From contig WGLQ01000008.1 in the NCBI GenBank assembly GCA_016125495.1, positions 1 through 64,000 of the forward strand: a DNA stretch of 64,000 nucleotides, given 5' to 3'. Within the stretch, counting starts at the first letter, position 1, and every line of letters starts with the position of its first letter. Shown here in pieces: positions 1 to 19,300 of this stretch. Under the pieces are notes generated by a model, which was not told the DNA's origin, searched no databases, and saw only the letters and a list, made by a program, of their open reading frames with translations. Both the position numbers and the translations under genes were made by a program. The stretch comes from Hyphomicrobiales bacterium (GTDB taxonomy: Bacteria > Pseudomonadota > Alphaproteobacteria > Rhizobiales > RI-29).

Positions 1-1742
<1,742 letters not shown>

Positions 1743-1874: not shown

Positions 1875-3764
1875 TCACATTCCGAACTTGGCTTGCTCGT
1901 CCTTCAGGGCCATGAGGTGCTCCAAGGCCCCCTCGGTGCCGGTCGCGTTGAATTCCCTCTCGGCCATCGCGATCGCCGCCCCCAGTTCGTCCAGTCGCTT
2001 GGCCGCGATGAGGTCCGCCCATCCTGCAAGAACCACGTCGTCGGGGGTCTCAGGGCGGGCAAAGCCATGCGTCTCGTGCAGTGTCGAACGGTCCACGAGG
2101 GCCAGTGCCGGCCCTTGCCCCAAACCGTCTAGATGATTGCGAAGGTCAATCGTGTCAAGAACCTCGGCCTCGGCATGGAGCGCGAGTAGAGCGTCACGAA
2201 GGCCCGCGAGCAACGCATTGGCGATCGCGAGGCCGGCGATCGTCTCATCGTCGCGATCGATCAGCCAGGGATGGTTGAGCAGCGTCAGCAGCAGCACCGC
2301 GTCGCGCGCGGTGGCGGCAGCCTCGGGGCTGGCAACGAGGAGCGAGCGGGTCAGGGCCTCGGAGTAGCCGGGCAGACCGGCCTGCCTCGGACCATGCGGG
2401 CCGGCCGCGCGATCGGCCCCGCCGGCCGCCATGCCCCGCCTCGCCGGCGCGCGCTCACGATTGGCGAACGTGCGCTCGCCGCGCCCTGCGTGCGTCGATG
2501 CGAATGCCGCCCAGAGGCGATCCGAGAGGTCGCGCTCGTAGTTCCGCCGCACCTCCGGGTGGGCGATGCGCTGGGCCTTGCCGAGCAGCAGTGCCTTGAG
2601 ACCGGCGCGCCGTTCGGGTGTCGACCAGTCACCACTCTCGAAGGTCGACTGCCAGAGCACGTCGGCGAGCGGGCGGGCGGCGCGAAGTGTCGCGGCGACC
2701 GCTTCGGCTCCCTGCTGGGCGAGCAGGTCGTCGGGGTCGAGACCATCCGGCATGAACGCAAAGCGCAGGCTGCGCGACGGTTGTAGCCGCTCCAGCGCGA
2801 GTTCGAGCGCGCGGAGCGCGGCCCGCCGGCCGGCCCCGTCGCCGTCGAAGCAGAGGATGGGTTCCTGCGCCATCCGCCAGAGCTGCGCCAGTTGGTCCTC
2901 GGTCAACGCCGTGCCGAGCGGGGCGACGGCATGGCGTATGCCGGCCCGCCAGAAGGCGATGACGTCCATGTAACCTTCCGCGACCACGACCTCGCCGGTG
3001 TCGTGGCTGGCCGGGCGGGCGCGGTGGGCGTTGAAAAGGACGCTGCCCTTGTGAAAGAGGGGCGTCTCCGGCGAGTTCAGATATTTCGCCGGCTGACCCG
3101 GCTCGAGCGCGCGCCCGCCGAAGGCGATGGTGCGACCACGCAGATCGGCGATCGGGAACATCACGCGATTGCGGAAGCGGTCGTACGGCTCACGGATGTC
3201 CGGTCCGGCGACGGTCATACCGGCCCGCGCCATCTCGGCATCGGTGAAGCCCTTGGCCGCAAGGTGCGCGCGCAGCGCTTGGCGATCGCCGGGGGCAAAG
3301 CCGATGGAGAAGACATCGCGGACCTCGCGGTCGAGCCCGCGGCGATCGAGATAGGCGGCGGCCTCGCGCCCGACGGAACGCGCGAGCTGGCCGCGATAGA
3401 AGTCCTCGCTCGCCGCCATCAATTCGAGCAGGCGGTCGCGCTCCTCCTCCTGGCGGACCATGGTCGGTGACGCCTTGGGCAGGGCAACACCCGCCTCCTC
3501 GGCCAGCCGTTCGACGGCCTCCGAAAAGCTCACCCCCTCGGTCGTCATCAGGAACTTGAAGATGTCGCCATGCTCGCCCGTCGAGAAGCAGTGATAGAAG
3601 CTCTTCTGGTCGTTCACGGTGAAGGAGGGTGTCTTTTCCTCCTTGAACGGGCTCAAGCCGACATACTCGCGGCCCCGGCGCTGCAGGCGGACCCGGCGCG
3701 ACACGACCTGGCTCACCGGAAGGCGGGCACGAATTTCGTCGAGCAGTTGCGGCGGAAAGCGCAT
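1875..3764 (-). CDS. dnaG: DNA primase DnaG with degenerate zinc-binding motif
   Basis: Primase that makes RNA primers for lagging-strand replication and works with DnaB helicase. I use ATG 3764 (MRFPPQLLDEIRARLP), giving 629 aa; the frame is open 120 nt further upstream but that stretch does not resemble the family. The N-terminal zinc-binding domain, about residues 20-85, is recognisable (GLSPFKEEKTPSF, then FYHCFSTGEHGD). However, three of the four usual Cys/His ligands are replaced: CxxH reads S-P-F-K and CxxC reads C-F-S-T. The catalytic core has the TOPRIM signatures VVVAEGYMDVIAF and CFDGDGAGR, so polymerase activity should be intact. The C-terminal DnaB-interaction region is weakly conserved, as is usual. 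The gene precedes rpoD on the same strand. Confidence 0.96.
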   Translation of the reverse strand: MRFPPQLLDEIRARLPVSQVVSRRVRLQRRGREYVGLSPFKEEKTPSFTVNDQKSFYHCFSTGEHGDIFKFLMTTEGVSFSEAVERLAEEAGVALPKASPTMVRQEEERDRLLELMAASEDFYRGQLARSVGREAAAYLDRRGLDREVRDVFSIGFAPGDRQALRAHLAAKGFTDAEMARAGMTVAGPDIREPYDRFRNRVMFPIADLRGRTIAFGGRALEPGQPAKYLNSPETPLFHKGSVLFNAHRARPASHDTGEVVVAEGYMDVIAFWRAGIRHAVAPLGTALTEDQLAQLWRMAQEPILCFDGDGAGRRAALRALELALERLQPSRSLRFAFMPDGLDPDDLLAQQGAEAVAATLRAARPLADVLWQSTFESGDWSTPERRAGLKALLLGKAQRIAHPEVRRNYERDLSDRLWAAFASTHAGRGERTFANRERAPARRGMAAGGADRAAGPHGPRQAGLPGYSEALTRSLLVASPEAAATARDAVLLLTLLNHPWLIDRDDETIAGLAIANALLAGLRDALLALHAEAEVLDTIDLRNHLDGLGQGPALALVDRSTLHETHGFARPETPDDVVLAGWADLIAAKRLDELGAAIAMAEREFNATGTEGALEHLMALKDEQAKFGM

Positions 3765-3989
3765 GGGCGACGGCCTTCGGGGCGAGCGGTGGCGACCGGA
3801 ACGGCGGGCCGATGGCGATTGATGGCCCAATTGGTAGACTGATTCGGTCCCGGGCCGGCGTATTGCCGGGCGCCCACCGAGCAATTGGGGAAAGGCTGTT
3901 CATCGCCGGTGGAAGCCCCGCGATGGCGTACCCGATCGAACCGATCGCGCCAGCGGCGGCGAGACGCGAGCGCGCTCCACCTTTCCGTG
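3765..3989. other. Intergenic region upstream of dnaG
   Basis: 225 bp between the end of the YqeY-like gene and dnaG, both on the minus strand. It contains an AT-richer patch (about 3825-3900) that could hold a dnaG promoter. I could not pick a convincing -35/-10 pair and see no terminator with a T-tract. Confidence 0.4.
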
Positions 3990-14612: not shown

Positions 14613-14863
14613 CTAATGACTGCCAAATCAGGAGCTCAAGCCGACAGGCAATGCCCCACCGAATACGACCTCTAGCAGCGAGGCGAACCTGCTGCAAAGC
14701 GTCGTTCAGAGCATCAACCCAGCAATGGTCCAGGGGGTACACGCATCTTGCCAGCCTGTCACGAGACGTTCACCATGCATCCGAGGGCGGCGCGTGCTGA
14801 AGTGAGGCCGGACCCAGATCGAGAGCGTCGCCCGAGGGTCCGCAACCCTTGGAGATCAATGCA

Positions 14864-16912
14864 ATGGGAGACTCCGACGGCCCGGGCGGTAGAGGTCCGC
14901 GCTCGATCGCCCTCGTTGGGCCGTTCCAAAGCGGCAAGACCACACTTCTCGAAGCCATCCTCGCGCGAACGGATGCCCGCGCCCGTCAGGGCACGGTGGC
15001 CGAGGGCACCTGCCTCGGTGATGGGACACCGGAAGCGCGGGCGCACTCCATGAGTGTCGAAATCAACTGCGCCGAGACGCAGTTCCTCGGCGAAACCATG
15101 AGCTTCATCGACTGCCCGGGTTCGATCGAATTCCAGTCGGAGACCAGCGCCGCGCTGAGCGTCGTCGATGCGGCGGTCGTGGTGTGCGAGCCGGACGAAA
15201 AGAAGGTCCCGGCGCTTCAGGTCATTCTGCGCGAACTCGAGGAACGCGGCATTCCGCACTTCCTCTTCCTCAACAAGATCGACCGCGCGAGCGCGCGGGT
15301 GCGGGAAATCCTCTCCCTGCTGCAGCCGGCGAGCGCTCGCCCGCTGGTGCTCCGCCAGATCCCGATCTGGGAGAACGGGATCGCGACGGGCTACGTCGAC
15401 CTCGCGCTCGAGCGCGCGCATCTCTATCGCGAGCATGCCCCGAGCGTGGTCATCGACATGCCGGCGGACATGGTCGAACGCGAGTCCGAGGCACGCTTCA
15501 ACATGCTCGAGAAGCTCGCGGACTATGATGACGAGCTGATGGAGCAGCTACTCTCGGACATGCAGCCACCGCGCGACAAGGTCTTCGAGGATCTCGCCCG
15601 CGAGTTGCAGGAGGGTCTCATCTGTCCGGTCCTGTTCGGCTCGGCCGAGCATGGCAACGGCATCGTGCGGCTGCTAAAGGCCCTGCGTCATGAGGCTCCG
15701 ACCGTTGAAAAGACCGCCGAGCGGCTGGGACTGGGCGGAGGGAAGTCCGCGGTGCACGTCTTCAAGACGTTGCATACACCGCATGGCGGGCGCCTGTCGG
15801 TGGCGCGCGTGCTCGCGGGTGAACTGGCGGAAACCGCGACGCTCACCTCCGGTGACCAGTCGAACCGAATCGCGGGTCTCGCAACGCTCATGGGCCAGGA
15901 TGTGCGCAAACGTGGCGCCGCCGTCGCGGGCGATGTCGTCGCCATCGTGCGCCTCGATGGCGCCAAGACCGGCGATACGCTCTCGGCCGATGGCACCAAG
16001 CCGCCCATGGTCGCGACGATGCCGGTGCCGCAACCGGTTTTCGCCCGGGCGCTCTCGGTGGCGGACCGCAAGGACGAGGTCAAACTGACCGCCGCTTTAC
16101 AGAAGATCATCGAGGAGGATCCGGCGCTTCGGCTGGACCACGATCAGGACCTGCACGAACTGGTGTTGCATGGACAGGGCGACATGCACCTGCGGGTGGC
16201 CCTCGAAAAGCTCCAGCGCAAGTTCGGCGTGACGGCGACCGCGAGCAAGCCGCGCATCGCCTACCGCGAGACGATCCGCAAGAGCACCGAAGTGCGCGGT
16301 CGCCACAAGAAGCAGTCGGGCGGGCACGGCCAGTTCGGCGACGTGGTCCTCAGAATCGCGCCGCTGCCCCGCGGCGGCGGCTTCGAGTTCAGCGACACGA
16401 TCACCGGCGGCGTGGTGCCCAAGCAGTACATCAGCTCGGTCGAGGCGGGGGCACGCGAGTCGCTGGCGCGCGGGCCGCTCGGCTTTCAGGTCGTCGACGT
16501 GTCGGTGGTCCTGACCGATGGCTCCTATCATACGGTCGATTCCTCCGATATGGCCTTCAAGACAGCCGCACGCATCGGCATGTCGGAAGGCCTGCCGCAG
16601 TGCTCCCCGGTGCTGCTGGAGCCGTTGATGGCTGTCACGGTGGTGTGCCCGAGCGAGGCGACGGCGCGCATCAACGCCATCATCTCCGGACGCCGGGGCC
16701 AGATCCTCGGGTTCGACACGCGCGCTGGCTGGCTCGGCTGGGACCAGGTCGAAGCGCACATGCCGGCGGCCGAGATCGGCGACCTCATCGTCGAAATCCG
16801 CTCGGCGACTTCGGGGGTCGGGACCTTCACCAACCGGTTCGACCATCTTTCGGAACTGACCGGCCGGCTCGCCGATCAGGTGATCGAGGCACAAACGGCG
16901 GCGGCGGCTTGA
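14864..16912 (+). CDS. Elongation factor G-like GTPase
   Basis: 682-aa EF-G paralogue, not the ribosomal-operon FusA. The N-terminal G domain has an altered P-loop (VGPFQSGKTTLLE), a switch II reading DCPGSIEF instead of DTPGHVDF, and NKID for guanine recognition. Domains III-V follow, with the EF-G domain IV hallmark RGRHKKQSGGHGQFGDV and a C-terminal domain V (RINAIISGRRGQILGF). The catalytic switch-II His is replaced by Ser, typical of EF-G-like proteins whose role is unresolved. I chose ATG 14864 over an upstream TTG because GGAG sits 9 nt before it. It is followed at 16961 by a terminator oriented for the opposite strand. Confidence 0.9.
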   Translation: MGDSDGPGGRGPRSIALVGPFQSGKTTLLEAILARTDARARQGTVAEGTCLGDGTPEARAHSMSVEINCAETQFLGETMSFIDCPGSIEFQSETSAALSVVDAAVVVCEPDEKKVPALQVILRELEERGIPHFLFLNKIDRASARVREILSLLQPASARPLVLRQIPIWENGIATGYVDLALERAHLYREHAPSVVIDMPADMVERESEARFNMLEKLADYDDELMEQLLSDMQPPRDKVFEDLARELQEGLICPVLFGSAEHGNGIVRLLKALRHEAPTVEKTAERLGLGGGKSAVHVFKTLHTPHGGRLSVARVLAGELAETATLTSGDQSNRIAGLATLMGQDVRKRGAAVAGDVVAIVRLDGAKTGDTLSADGTKPPMVATMPVPQPVFARALSVADRKDEVKLTAALQKIIEEDPALRLDHDQDLHELVLHGQGDMHLRVALEKLQRKFGVTATASKPRIAYRETIRKSTEVRGRHKKQSGGHGQFGDVVLRIAPLPRGGGFEFSDTITGGVVPKQYISSVEAGARESLARGPLGFQVVDVSVVLTDGSYHTVDSSDMAFKTAARIGMSEGLPQCSPVLLEPLMAVTVVCPSEATARINAIISGRRGQILGFDTRAGWLGWDQVEAHMPAAEIGDLIVEIRSATSGVGTFTNRFDHLSELTGRLADQVIEAQTAAAA

Positions 16913-16960: not shown

Positions 16961-16996
16961 AACAAGAAAAAAGCCCCGTCGCATTGCGACGGGGCT
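16961..16996 (-). terminator. Strong Rho-independent terminator, minus strand
   Basis: Perfect 11-bp stem (AGCCCCGTCGC / GCGACGGGGCT) with a 3-nt loop at 16972-16996. Read on the minus strand it is followed at once by TTTTT CTTGTT. Read on the plus strand there is no T-tract, so it serves minus-strand transcription arriving from about 17.0-17.2 kb, not the EF-G-like gene. Confidence 0.88.
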
Positions 16997-17163
16997 AGTC
17001 AGGTGTCCCGATCGGCGGGACCGTGATCGCCGTGGCGACCACTGAAGGCATCTAGGGAGGGAAGACCTTCGCCCGGGAAAATGGTGCATCCGAACGGGTT
17101 GCGCCAGTCGCATGGTTTCATGGGAGCTATGCACGAATCGGCGCACTTCATGAACGGCTCGGC
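16964..17163 (-). ncRNA. Candidate AbcR-like (alpha-r15) small RNA downstream of the lsrB/vtlR homologue
   Basis: A minus-strand promoter-like pair (CTGAGA 17198-17193, 17-bp spacer, TATGCT 17175-17170) precedes about 200 nt that end in the strong terminator at 16961-16996. Between them I see successive hairpins: a GCAT/ATGC stem (17110-17132) whose loop holds CTCCCA; GAAGG/CCTTC (17044-17070) whose loop holds CTTCCCTCCC, complementary to Shine-Dalgarno sequences; TGGTCGCC/GGCGATCA (17024-17041); and GTCCCG/CGGGAC (17005-17021). From memory, AbcR1/AbcR2 of Sinorhizobium lie beside lsrB, Brucella abcR2 lies beside vtlR, and CUCCCA is a key targeting motif there. The adjacent gene here is the lsrB/vtlR homologue. 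A 50-codon frame overlaps the locus but is less convincing. The exact 5' end is a guess. Confidence 0.55.
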
Positions 17164-17272: not shown

Positions 17273-18166
17273 TCAGAACCGCCATTGCCGCGCCTTGGCG
17301 ATGAGGAAGTCGCGAAAGACGTTGACGCGCTTGGAGTGGCGCATTTCCTCGGAGAACACGAAGTAGGTCTGGAAGTCGAGCAGTTCCTCGGTTTCGAGCA
17401 CCGCGACCAGGTCGCTGTCGTTGGCGACCAGATAGTCGGGCAGAACCGCGAGGCCGATCCCCTGGCGAACGGCATGCATCAGGCCATAGACGTTGTTGAT
17501 CTCCATGGCGCACCGACGTGGCGCGGCACCGGCCGGAAGGCCAACGGTCTGCAACCAATTGAAGACCTGGACCGACACCGGATGATCACCGCCGAAACCG
17601 ATGATCCGGTGGCGATCGAGGTCGTCGGCGCCGGTCGGCGCGCCGTGGCGGCGGATGTAGGAGACCGACGCATAGCAGTGCAAGTGCACGGTAAAGAGCG
17701 GTCGGCGGATGAGATCGTTCTGCTGTGGCTCGCGCAGCCAGATGCCGCAGTCGGCCTCGCGCATCGAGATGTCGAGTTCCTGGTCCGCCAGGATGAGCTT
17801 CAACTGAATGTCCGGGTAGAGCTCGAGGAATTCGTCGAGGCGCGGCGTGAGCCATGCCGAGCCGATCCCGGTGGTGGTCGTCACACGCAGCTCGCCGGTG
17901 GGCTTGTCCTTGGAATCGGCGAGCAGCGTTTCGGCGCTCTGGAGCTTGTTGAAGACGTCGTGGGCCGTCCGGTACAACAATTCACCTTGCTCTGTGAGAA
18001 CGAGACCACGGGCATGGCGATGGAACAGGGAGACGTTGAGATCGCGCTCGAGCGCGCCAACCTGCCGGCTGACAGCTGATTGGCTCATCTGCAAGAGGTC
18101 GCCCGCGTGGGTGAAGCTGCCTGCTTCGGCCGCCGCATGGAAAATGCGCAGCTTGTCCCAGTCCAT
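17273..18166 (-). CDS. LysR-family regulator of the LsrB/VtlR type
   Basis: 297-aa LysR-type transcription regulator. The N-terminal winged helix-turn-helix is clear (MDWDKLRIFHAAAEAGSFTH, then MSQSAVSRQVGALERDL), followed by FHRHARGLVLTEQGELLYRT and an effector-binding domain. The sequence and its position next to trxB match LsrB of Sinorhizobium and VtlR of Brucella, which control AbcR sRNAs, redox response and host interaction. Three cysteines in the effector domain (about 140, 164, 219) could be redox-active. I use ATG 18166; a GTG at 18196 is an alternative start. A candidate sRNA lies directly downstream on the same strand. Orthology is inferred from remembered sequence and synteny. Confidence 0.88.
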   Translation of the reverse strand: MDWDKLRIFHAAAEAGSFTHAGDLLQMSQSAVSRQVGALERDLNVSLFHRHARGLVLTEQGELLYRTAHDVFNKLQSAETLLADSKDKPTGELRVTTTTGIGSAWLTPRLDEFLELYPDIQLKLILADQELDISMREADCGIWLREPQQNDLIRRPLFTVHLHCYASVSYIRRHGAPTGADDLDRHRIIGFGGDHPVSVQVFNWLQTVGLPAGAAPRRCAMEINNVYGLMHAVRQGIGLAVLPDYLVANDSDLVAVLETEELLDFQTYFVFSEEMRHSKRVNVFRDFLIAKARQWRF

Positions 18167-18275
18167 CCTCGGCTGTCGAAGCAGACGTTGCGGCACAACT
18201 CACCATCCATTCTGGCGATCGCTTCGTGGCGAACGCTCGATTGTGCGACTGCCTGGGCACGGGCCGCGCGCTGCC

Positions 18276-19238
18276 TCAGCCCGCCTCGGCCGAAACCGGC
18301 TCCTCGGCAAGGAACCGCTCGGCCTCGAGCGCCGCCATACACCCCATTCCGGCCGCCGTGATCGCCTGACGATAGACGTCGTCGGTCACGTCGCCAGCGG
18401 CAAAAACGCCCGCCACGCTCGTTGCCGTCGAACGCGGCTCGGTCGTGACATAGCCGTCGGCACGCATCGCCAAGTGGCCACGGAACACCTCGGTCGCCGG
18501 GCTATGGCCGATGGCAATGAAGACGCCGTCCACGGGCCGCACGCTCTCTGTCCCGGTCTTGAGGTTGCGCAGGCGCACACCGGTGACCGAGCGTGGCTCG
18601 CTGTTGCCGACGATTTCCTCGACCACAGTATCCCAAATCACCTCGATGCGCTCGTTTCGCAAGAGCCGATCCTGCAGAATCCGCTCCGCGCGCAGGCTGT
18701 CGCGGCGATGAACGAGCACCACACGGCGCGCAAACCGGGTCAGGAACAGCGCCTCCTCGACGGCCGTGTTGCCACCGCCGACAACCACGACCTCCTTGTC
18801 GCGATAGAAAAACCCGTCGCACGTCGCGCAAGCCGAGACGCCAAAGCCCTTGTACGTCTCCTCCGAAGCGATCCCGAGCCAGCGGGCCTGGGCGCCCGTC
18901 GCCACGATCACCGCATCGGCGCGATATTCGTCGCCTCCGTCGCCGAAGAGGCGGAACGGACGACGCGAGAAATCAACCCTGGTGATGAGGTCGTCGATGA
19001 TCCTGGTTCCGACGTGTACCGCCTGCGCCTCCATTTGCTCCATGAGCCAGGGGCCCTGGATCACCTCGGCAAAGCCCGGATAATTCTCGACGTCGGTCGT
19101 GATCATGAGCTGGCCGCCCGGCTGCATGCCGCGCACCATGACGGGCGACAGCATGGCGCGGGCGGCGTAGATGGCCGCCGTGCAGCCGGCCGGACCCGAT
19201 CCGACGATCAGCACCTTCGTGTGGTGGACCTCTCCCAT
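18276..19238 (-). CDS. trxB: Thioredoxin reductase
   Basis: 320-aa flavoprotein that passes NADPH electrons to thioredoxin in the cytosol. FAD-binding motif VLIVGSGPAGCTAAIYAARA at the N-terminus; redox-active CATC (Cys137, Cys140) in SACATCDGFFYRDK; NADPH-binding VVVVGGGNTAVEEALFL; C-terminal FAD motif VAGVFAAGDVTD. Start ATG 19238 has GGGGAGAG just upstream, so the longer open frame to 19274 is not used. It lies 110 bp upstream of the LysR gene on the same strand. Confidence 0.97.
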   Translation of the reverse strand: MGEVHHTKVLIVGSGPAGCTAAIYAARAMLSPVMVRGMQPGGQLMITTDVENYPGFAEVIQGPWLMEQMEAQAVHVGTRIIDDLITRVDFSRRPFRLFGDGGDEYRADAVIVATGAQARWLGIASEETYKGFGVSACATCDGFFYRDKEVVVVGGGNTAVEEALFLTRFARRVVLVHRRDSLRAERILQDRLLRNERIEVIWDTVVEEIVGNSEPRSVTGVRLRNLKTGTESVRPVDGVFIAIGHSPATEVFRGHLAMRADGYVTTEPRSTATSVAGVFAAGDVTDDVYRQAITAAGMGCMAALEAERFLAEEPVSAEAG

Positions 19239-19300
19239 TTCTCTCCCCGGTTCATCTCCAAGTCGCTGCCGCACTGGGCGCTGCGGGCGCCATCCGGGCG

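Follow-up and report, generated by a model that had tools for sequence, protein, structure and literature searches.

Genes for the anti-Shine-Dalgarno (aSD) RNAs AbcR1 and AbcR2 are described directly downstream of trxB-vtlR in Agrobacterium, in the order trxB, vtlR, abcR1, abcR2 (PMC7486931), and in S. meliloti with lsrB and SMc01226 as their neighbours on either side (PMC3712013), the latter in agreement with the place beside lsrB that the original prediction had given for Sinorhizobium. They belong to alpha-r15, a family assigned to the Rhizobiaceae and Brucellaceae, with two or more copies per genome and an aSD action on ribosome-binding sites (PMC3712013); lengths of 120 and 114 nt are given for the S. 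meliloti pair (PMC7143759), where AbcR1 is reported to be activated by LsrB (PMC8844928). The stretch of 64,000 nt analysed here (the window), which comes from a Hyphomicrobiales bacterium, carries an lsrB/vtlR-like LysR gene followed on the same strand by a spacer ending in a strong hairpin, and the question arises whether this spacer encodes an AbcR of its own or only the tail of the preceding message. The original prediction proposed an AbcR-type RNA of about 200 nt. With a probability of about 0.85 we read the locus as a gene for a small RNA of approximately 107 nt beside lsrB, a compact and divergent AbcR that would block translation of nutrient-transporter mRNAs.

Genomic context of the spacer

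No recognisable gene lies between the end of the EF-G-like gene on the plus strand (16912) and the stop codon of the LysR gene on the minus strand (17273), and the gene order expected upstream, LysR first and trxB beyond it, is found as well (Table 1). A trxB match is present in the DNA fetched around the LysR gene in all 80 loci taken from named records, those of Sinorhizobium, Agrobacterium and Brucella included. The nearest LysR protein among the searched genomes is only 71% identical (L040). The EF-G-like gene stands on the opposite strand behind lsrB in 10 of these 80 loci (2.5 kb fetched), so that the neighbourhood with this gene is partly conserved. LysR genes with 54-59% identity and trxB in the locus also occur in records of Pelagibius, Kiloniella, Minwuia and Magnetospirillum (L203, L216, L232, L246, L254) and are putative LsrB orthologues by identity, although LsrB is called unique to Rhizobiales in PMC11975290.

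Table 1. Features of the trxB-lsrB locus and of the predicted RNA gene (positions in the window)
Feature	Position	Strand	Remarks
EF-G-like gene	14849-16912	+	
Intrinsic terminator, 11-pair stem and five T	16966-16996	-	equivalent terminators in relatives
Predicted sRNA, ~107 nt	16966-17072	-	5' end inferred from -10, 3' end from terminator
SL3, 6-pair hairpin	17005-17022	-	predicted fold
SL2, 8-pair hairpin	17023-17042	-	predicted fold
SL1, 5' hairpin GAAGG...CCTTC	17044-17070	-	same arms in L040, L044, L047, L050 and others
aSD loop CTTCCCTCCC, equivalent of AbcR aSD1	17055-17064	-	position is that of the CTCCC loop of relatives
Predicted -10, CATTTT	17078-17083	-	in register; family consensus CATAT at operator +49
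Predicted -35, TGGCGC	17101-17106	-	in register; one mismatch to family TTG at operator +26
Predicted LsrB/VtlR operator GCATAGCTCCCATG	17119-17132	-	one mismatch to published GCAT-N3-TG-N3-T
LysR-family gene, lsrB/vtlR orthologue	17273-18196	-	proposed activator; 54-71% identical to LysR proteins near trxB elsewhere
trxB, thioredoxin reductase	18276-19274	-	TIGR01292 407.7 bits, above cut-off; upstream neighbour

Terminator and predicted secondary structure

The minus-strand terminator announced in the original prediction, with an 11-bp stem and five T, is borne out: it reads AGCCCCGTCGC-AAT-GCGACGGGGCT followed by TTTTTC, with three loop bases and G-C in 9 of the 11 pairs. The stem is followed by no T run on the plus strand, its polarity thus being wrong for the EF-G-like gene, as had been stated. 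Five terminator-like sites are found in 6 kb as compared with 3.4 on average in shuffled sequences. Such a count is ordinary, but the stem at 16996-16966 is long and has the most pairs among the five. The 127 nt at 17090-16964 fold with -57.0 kcal/mol versus -40.4 +/- 3.6 for shuffles (z -4.66; reached by 0 of 200), and the 200 nt originally delimited give z -3.33. As to the extent of the RNA, the predicted product of about 107 nt revises the earlier figure, the 5' boundary of which was wrong.

Two loops able to pair with ribosome-binding sites had been proposed, and one of them stands as the aSD loop of SL1; the other, CTCCCA, is part of the predicted operator, which precedes the deduced start site, and is therefore outside the RNA. 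SL1 reads GAAGG-TCTTCCCTCCCTAGATG-CCTTC, a pattern occurring once in the window and in 0 of 100 shuffles, albeit derived from the same stretch, and RNAfold prefers the form GAAGGU...GCCUUC. The stem around the aSD loop of the window is short and by itself unremarkable, its simple stem score being equalled by 838 of 2000 shuffles, and the top stem by this score is not GAAGG...CCTTC but GGCGA...TCGCC, a competitor of both SL1 and SL2. It is conservation that gives the predicted SL1 hairpin its weight. Throughout the wider set the same loop is enclosed by many different stems, and the stem outdoes 95% of shuffles in 56 of 112 units, about 6 being expected.

Compensatory changes had been suggested earlier as a check. 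In alignment A3, 96.6% of cells agree with the 16 pairs, and eight of these pairs change on both sides, seven in the terminator and one in SL1; the other SL1 pairs served to select the rows and for that reason are invariant. The first alignment, A1, comprised 41 of the 57 non-window units; MAFFT left SL1 unaligned, only the terminator was predicted, and for this reason no model was built from A1.

Operator and promoter

For abcR1, the LsrB motif GCAT-N3-TG-N3-T is placed at -61 to -49 (PMC8844928). The start near 17072 deduced from the -10 element would give the box of the window a position of about -60 to -47, in keeping with S. meliloti. Boxes resembling GCATRGCTGACATG lie upstream of the units of relatives, and GCATNNCTNNNATG with at most one mismatch is present at 87 of 116 units versus 2 of 180 shuffled stretches. 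Across the 4.05 Mb genome GCATAGCTNNYATG is matched exactly only once, at the operator of the window; with one mismatch allowed there is no excess (15 matches versus 14 for the reversed control), so that only the exact match is telling. The identical 14-mer recurs in four relatives (L058, L061, L067, L093), in which it stands 95-102 nt from the aSD motif versus 73 nt in the window; in the two closest relatives with the same box orientation (L040, L044) the distance is 77-79 nt, the operator of the window thus lying 4 to 6 nt nearer to the hairpin.

Among 81 other units with at most one operator mismatch, TTG occurs at box +26 in 70 and within +22 to +33 in 78. A promoter matrix built from these LysR-downstream sites, with the window excluded, was run over approximately 128,000 positions of the 64 kb window and scored 25.0 at 17132, the next best value being -0.3; the operator score, too, is unique within the window. 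This promoter score is nevertheless low for the family, the median of which is 44.9, with 9 of the 81 relatives as low or lower. A -35/-10 pair as good as that of the locus is met at 30 positions of the window (fraction 0.00023), and a simple promoter scan found nothing. The operator and promoter tests are independent of the SL1-based choice of rows described below for the covariance model. The conserved promoter (operator, TTG at +26, CATAT at +49) offers a tool for finding such RNAs where sequence search fails.

The same arrangement bears on a 50-aa open reading frame at 17151-16999 of the minus strand, which might be taken for a small-protein gene. The frame is indeed open, but the predicted operator and promoter fall inside it and its stop codon comes after SL3, short of the terminator, and the distances between conserved blocks in relatives differ, by eye also by non-multiples of three; the peptide reading was rejected, and we give it next to no probability.

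Conservation of the unit downstream of LysR genes

A unit was defined as a CTCCC loop with a terminator no more than 135 nt beyond it on the LysR strand, and was sought in 101 LysR-downstream regions, the window among them (the 30 best LysR matches, 60 picked for spread and 11 obtained via the Rfam AbcR model, ar15), as well as in the 80 loci from named records, five loci being common to both sets as the same DNA. The LysR strand carries it in 58 of 101 regions (47 of 90 without the ar15-derived ones) and in 55 of 80 loci, versus 1 of 101 and 2 of 80 on the reverse strand and none in either shuffled set; 43 and 25 loci, respectively, have no unit by this rule. The window was at first scored through the CTCCC inside its operator; excluding operator copies neither removes it from the count nor alters the total of 58. 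These 58 units span 21 family-level groups, that of the window genome included, one of the groups (f28) depending on a single doubtful unit (L094).

Two side observations concern the placement of such units. In group f34, a box-SL1-terminator unit occurs away from lsrB in L255 and L262 (genomes G033 and G109), the lsrB genes of which have no unit behind them. In L126 of group f7, two tandem matches of model R1 (see below; 601-747 and 858-1005, minus strand) follow one LysR gene, like abcR1/abcR2.

On these grounds the explanation that hairpins and terminator are merely the 3' untranslated region of a trxB-lysR message, with no separate RNA, can be weighed. It draws on the common strand and on the position of the terminator, about 280 nt past the LysR stop codon, where the same structure may also end lysR transcription. 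Against it, the spacer contains the predicted operator and a -10 that keep the register of 81 other promoters, the aSD hairpin is met again in several families, the units of L255 and L262 have no LysR or TrxB gene detectable by tblastn within the fetched 3.5 kb, and AbcR1 and AbcR2 of S. meliloti each start at a mapped site of their own (PMC3712013). We hold this explanation to be very unlikely and favour a transcription unit of its own.

Covariance-model searches

No Rfam family exceeded its threshold in the window. A match to the alpha-r15 model, the lack of which the original prediction would have held against itself, was not obtained: ar15 (AbcR, RF02345; gathering score 40 bits) has no match in the window or in the genome. 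At E 0.01 it also gives nothing in 11 of 15 loci checked, the nearest relatives of the window among them, which argues for divergence within the family rather than absence. Across 249 genomes of the order, ar15 has a match at E 0.001 in 36 and above the cut-off in 12, four genomes of group f11 passing the cut-off; a number of these matches directly follow the LysR orthologue on its strand (e.g. G060, G083, G085, G222), whereas others, such as those of G019 and G165, are not of this kind. The ar15 controls (L233, L251, L209) score 64-122 bits, and the loci of Sinorhizobium, Agrobacterium and Brucella give ar15 matches of 64-122 bits behind the LysR gene, so that the position of the window unit is the AbcR position.

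In a permissive Rfam search most of the better weak matches cover the terminator, including that of suhB (MmgR, RF00519; 21.4 bits, E 0.1). This match, together with the aSD motif described for the first loop of MmgR (PMC7143759), would suit an unrelated aSD RNA of MmgR/suhB type standing beside lsrB by chance; suhB and ar15, however, share an Rfam clan (CL00108), which means that the match cannot tell them apart, and position and predicted LsrB operator fit AbcR. We consider such a coincidence highly improbable.

Model R1 was built from 15 relatives with the window excluded (16 were considered, L256 being dropped as no terminator was found). The rows were chosen for a GAAGG...CCTCCC...CCTTC hairpin suggested by the window, which makes its E-value optimistic; in a search of the window it matches 17074-16967 (32.9 bits, E 4.4e-7). 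Across the whole genome the best match is the same site (E 2.8e-5), which, along with the constant presence of trxB in the loci from named records, upholds the central claim of an AbcR-type aSD RNA beside lsrB/vtlR. R1 also matches the AbcR found by Rfam beside lsrB in a Brucella record and covers ar15-found AbcR loci (e.g. L209, 3762-3872 by R1 versus 3758-3873 by ar15). At E 0.05 its matches number 54 for a set of 90 loci and 46 for the set of 80, counts that include training rows, the window and some other-strand or partial matches. The locus suggests that much of the lsrB-linked RNA group escapes the Rfam model.

The pattern GAAGG-N6..15-CCTCCC-N2..12-CCTTC matched 170 of 397 genomes, many of the hits being chance-like; it served only to find copies and misses the window, where the gap is 5. 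A DNA search with the whole spacer against 60 relatives, all from outside the family and so bearing on selection between lineages rather than within this one, returned short scattered matches in 5 only.

Missing second module and copy number

A second aSD motif (TTCCCCTC or UUCCCCUC) is absent between SL1 and the terminator of the window unit, as it is from L040, L044, L047 and others; TTCCCCTC is found in 46 of 55 units from named records and in 40 of 58 of the other set. R1 detects no clear second copy in the genome (36 contigs, 99.35% complete), the next best match (21.4 bits, E 0.03) looking like a different RNA. This candidate, L264 1501-1592 (G000:C33:21869-21960, plus strand), carries TTCCCCCC twice, with TTGACA upstream and a strong hairpin of terminator type next to a T run; its Rfam matches are all sub-threshold.

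The missing module raises the alternative of a decayed AbcR gene, an ancestral locus whose promoter is no longer active, with which the -35 TGG in place of TTG, the low promoter score and the displaced operator would also agree. The operator, SL1 with its aSD loop, and the terminator with its 11 pairs and five T have, however, stayed intact despite the distance to the nearest LysR protein, and L040 and L044, with an intact TTG, likewise lack the second motif. Decay thus appears quite unlikely, and an active compact gene is preferred.

Proposed function and targets

Locus, operator, promoter register, SL1 with its aSD loop and terminator, as predicted features, are supported by the comparison; transcription, binding and control by LsrB, Hfq binding and transporter targets we infer. 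By position, promoter and 5' module the element is probably an orthologue of AbcR, namely a compact variant with a single aSD module and in a single copy. The spacer downstream of trxB-lsrB would constitute its own transcription unit, in which LsrB would bind GCATAGCTCCCATG at about -60 to -47 and activate the weak sigma-70-type promoter TGGCGC-N17-CATTTT, yielding an RNA of about 107 nt with its 5' end near 17072 and its 3' end at the terminator, near 16966. The first hairpin of this RNA would display CUUCCCUCCC for pairing with purine-rich ribosome-binding sites, probably with the assistance of Hfq, the gene for which is present in the genome, and pairing would block translation, for example of amino-acid ABC transporter mRNAs. 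The scheme follows the control described for S. meliloti AbcR1 and the action described for AbcR1/2 (PMC8844928, PMC3712013); two target tests weigh neither for nor against the ABC-transporter role. The pattern GGGAGGGA-N2..9-ATG has 15 matches in the genome versus 4 for the reversed pattern, and 9 of the 15 precede an open reading frame of at least 100 aa, among them L278, which we take to encode an amino-acid ABC permease. Pairing of the loop with the ribosome-binding sites of six periplasmic binding proteins is only slightly better than with those of 29 control genes (p 0.10; start codons chosen by script).

We lean towards the view that the pairing of LsrB with an AbcR-like RNA is ancestral throughout the order, beyond Rhizobiaceae and Brucellaceae, and that the RNA has shrunk to one aSD module in several lineages, that of the window among them, where it would also be down to one copy. 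If true, the RNA of the window would be a minimal natural test of the role of the second module and of the duplicate. The locus suggests that the link between LsrB, a redox regulator, and an aSD RNA is older and wider than described and that a compact single-module form exists. A few rhizobial sRNAs, names not given, are said to reach Xanthobacteraceae, Beijerinckiaceae or Bradyrhizobiaceae (PMC7143759); with this spread and the ar15 matches in the four f11 genomes, an occurrence outside Rhizobiaceae and Brucellaceae has some precedent. No report of an lsrB-linked single-module form was found in the titles and beginnings of abstracts searched, and we do not claim that it is unpublished.

Comparison with known systems

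AbcR1 and AbcR2 (alpha-r15, RF02345; Sinorhizobium, Agrobacterium, Brucella) share with the predicted RNA the place downstream of lsrB/vtlR on the same strand, the 5' hairpin with a CUCCC-type aSD loop, the terminator and a similar length, and AbcR1 also an LsrB-type operator at about -60, predicted in the window. The RNA of the window differs in staying below the ar15 threshold, in lacking the second aSD motif, in the one copy found, in other middle hairpins and in a -35 element departing from the family. With ar15 silent and the second motif absent, the unit falls outside ar15 as defined, yet occupies the orthologous place. MmgR (alpha-r8; RF00519, suhB, of the same clan as ar15) is alike as a short RNA with an aSD loop, a terminator and a weak model match. 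We know of no link of MmgR to lsrB. Its control is attributed to NtrC and AniA (PMC7143759), which sets it apart. The LsrB/VtlR regulon of A. tumefaciens, described as comprising abcR1, atu1667 and vrsA (PMC7486931), has its likeness here in the LysR orthologue and the matching predicted operator.
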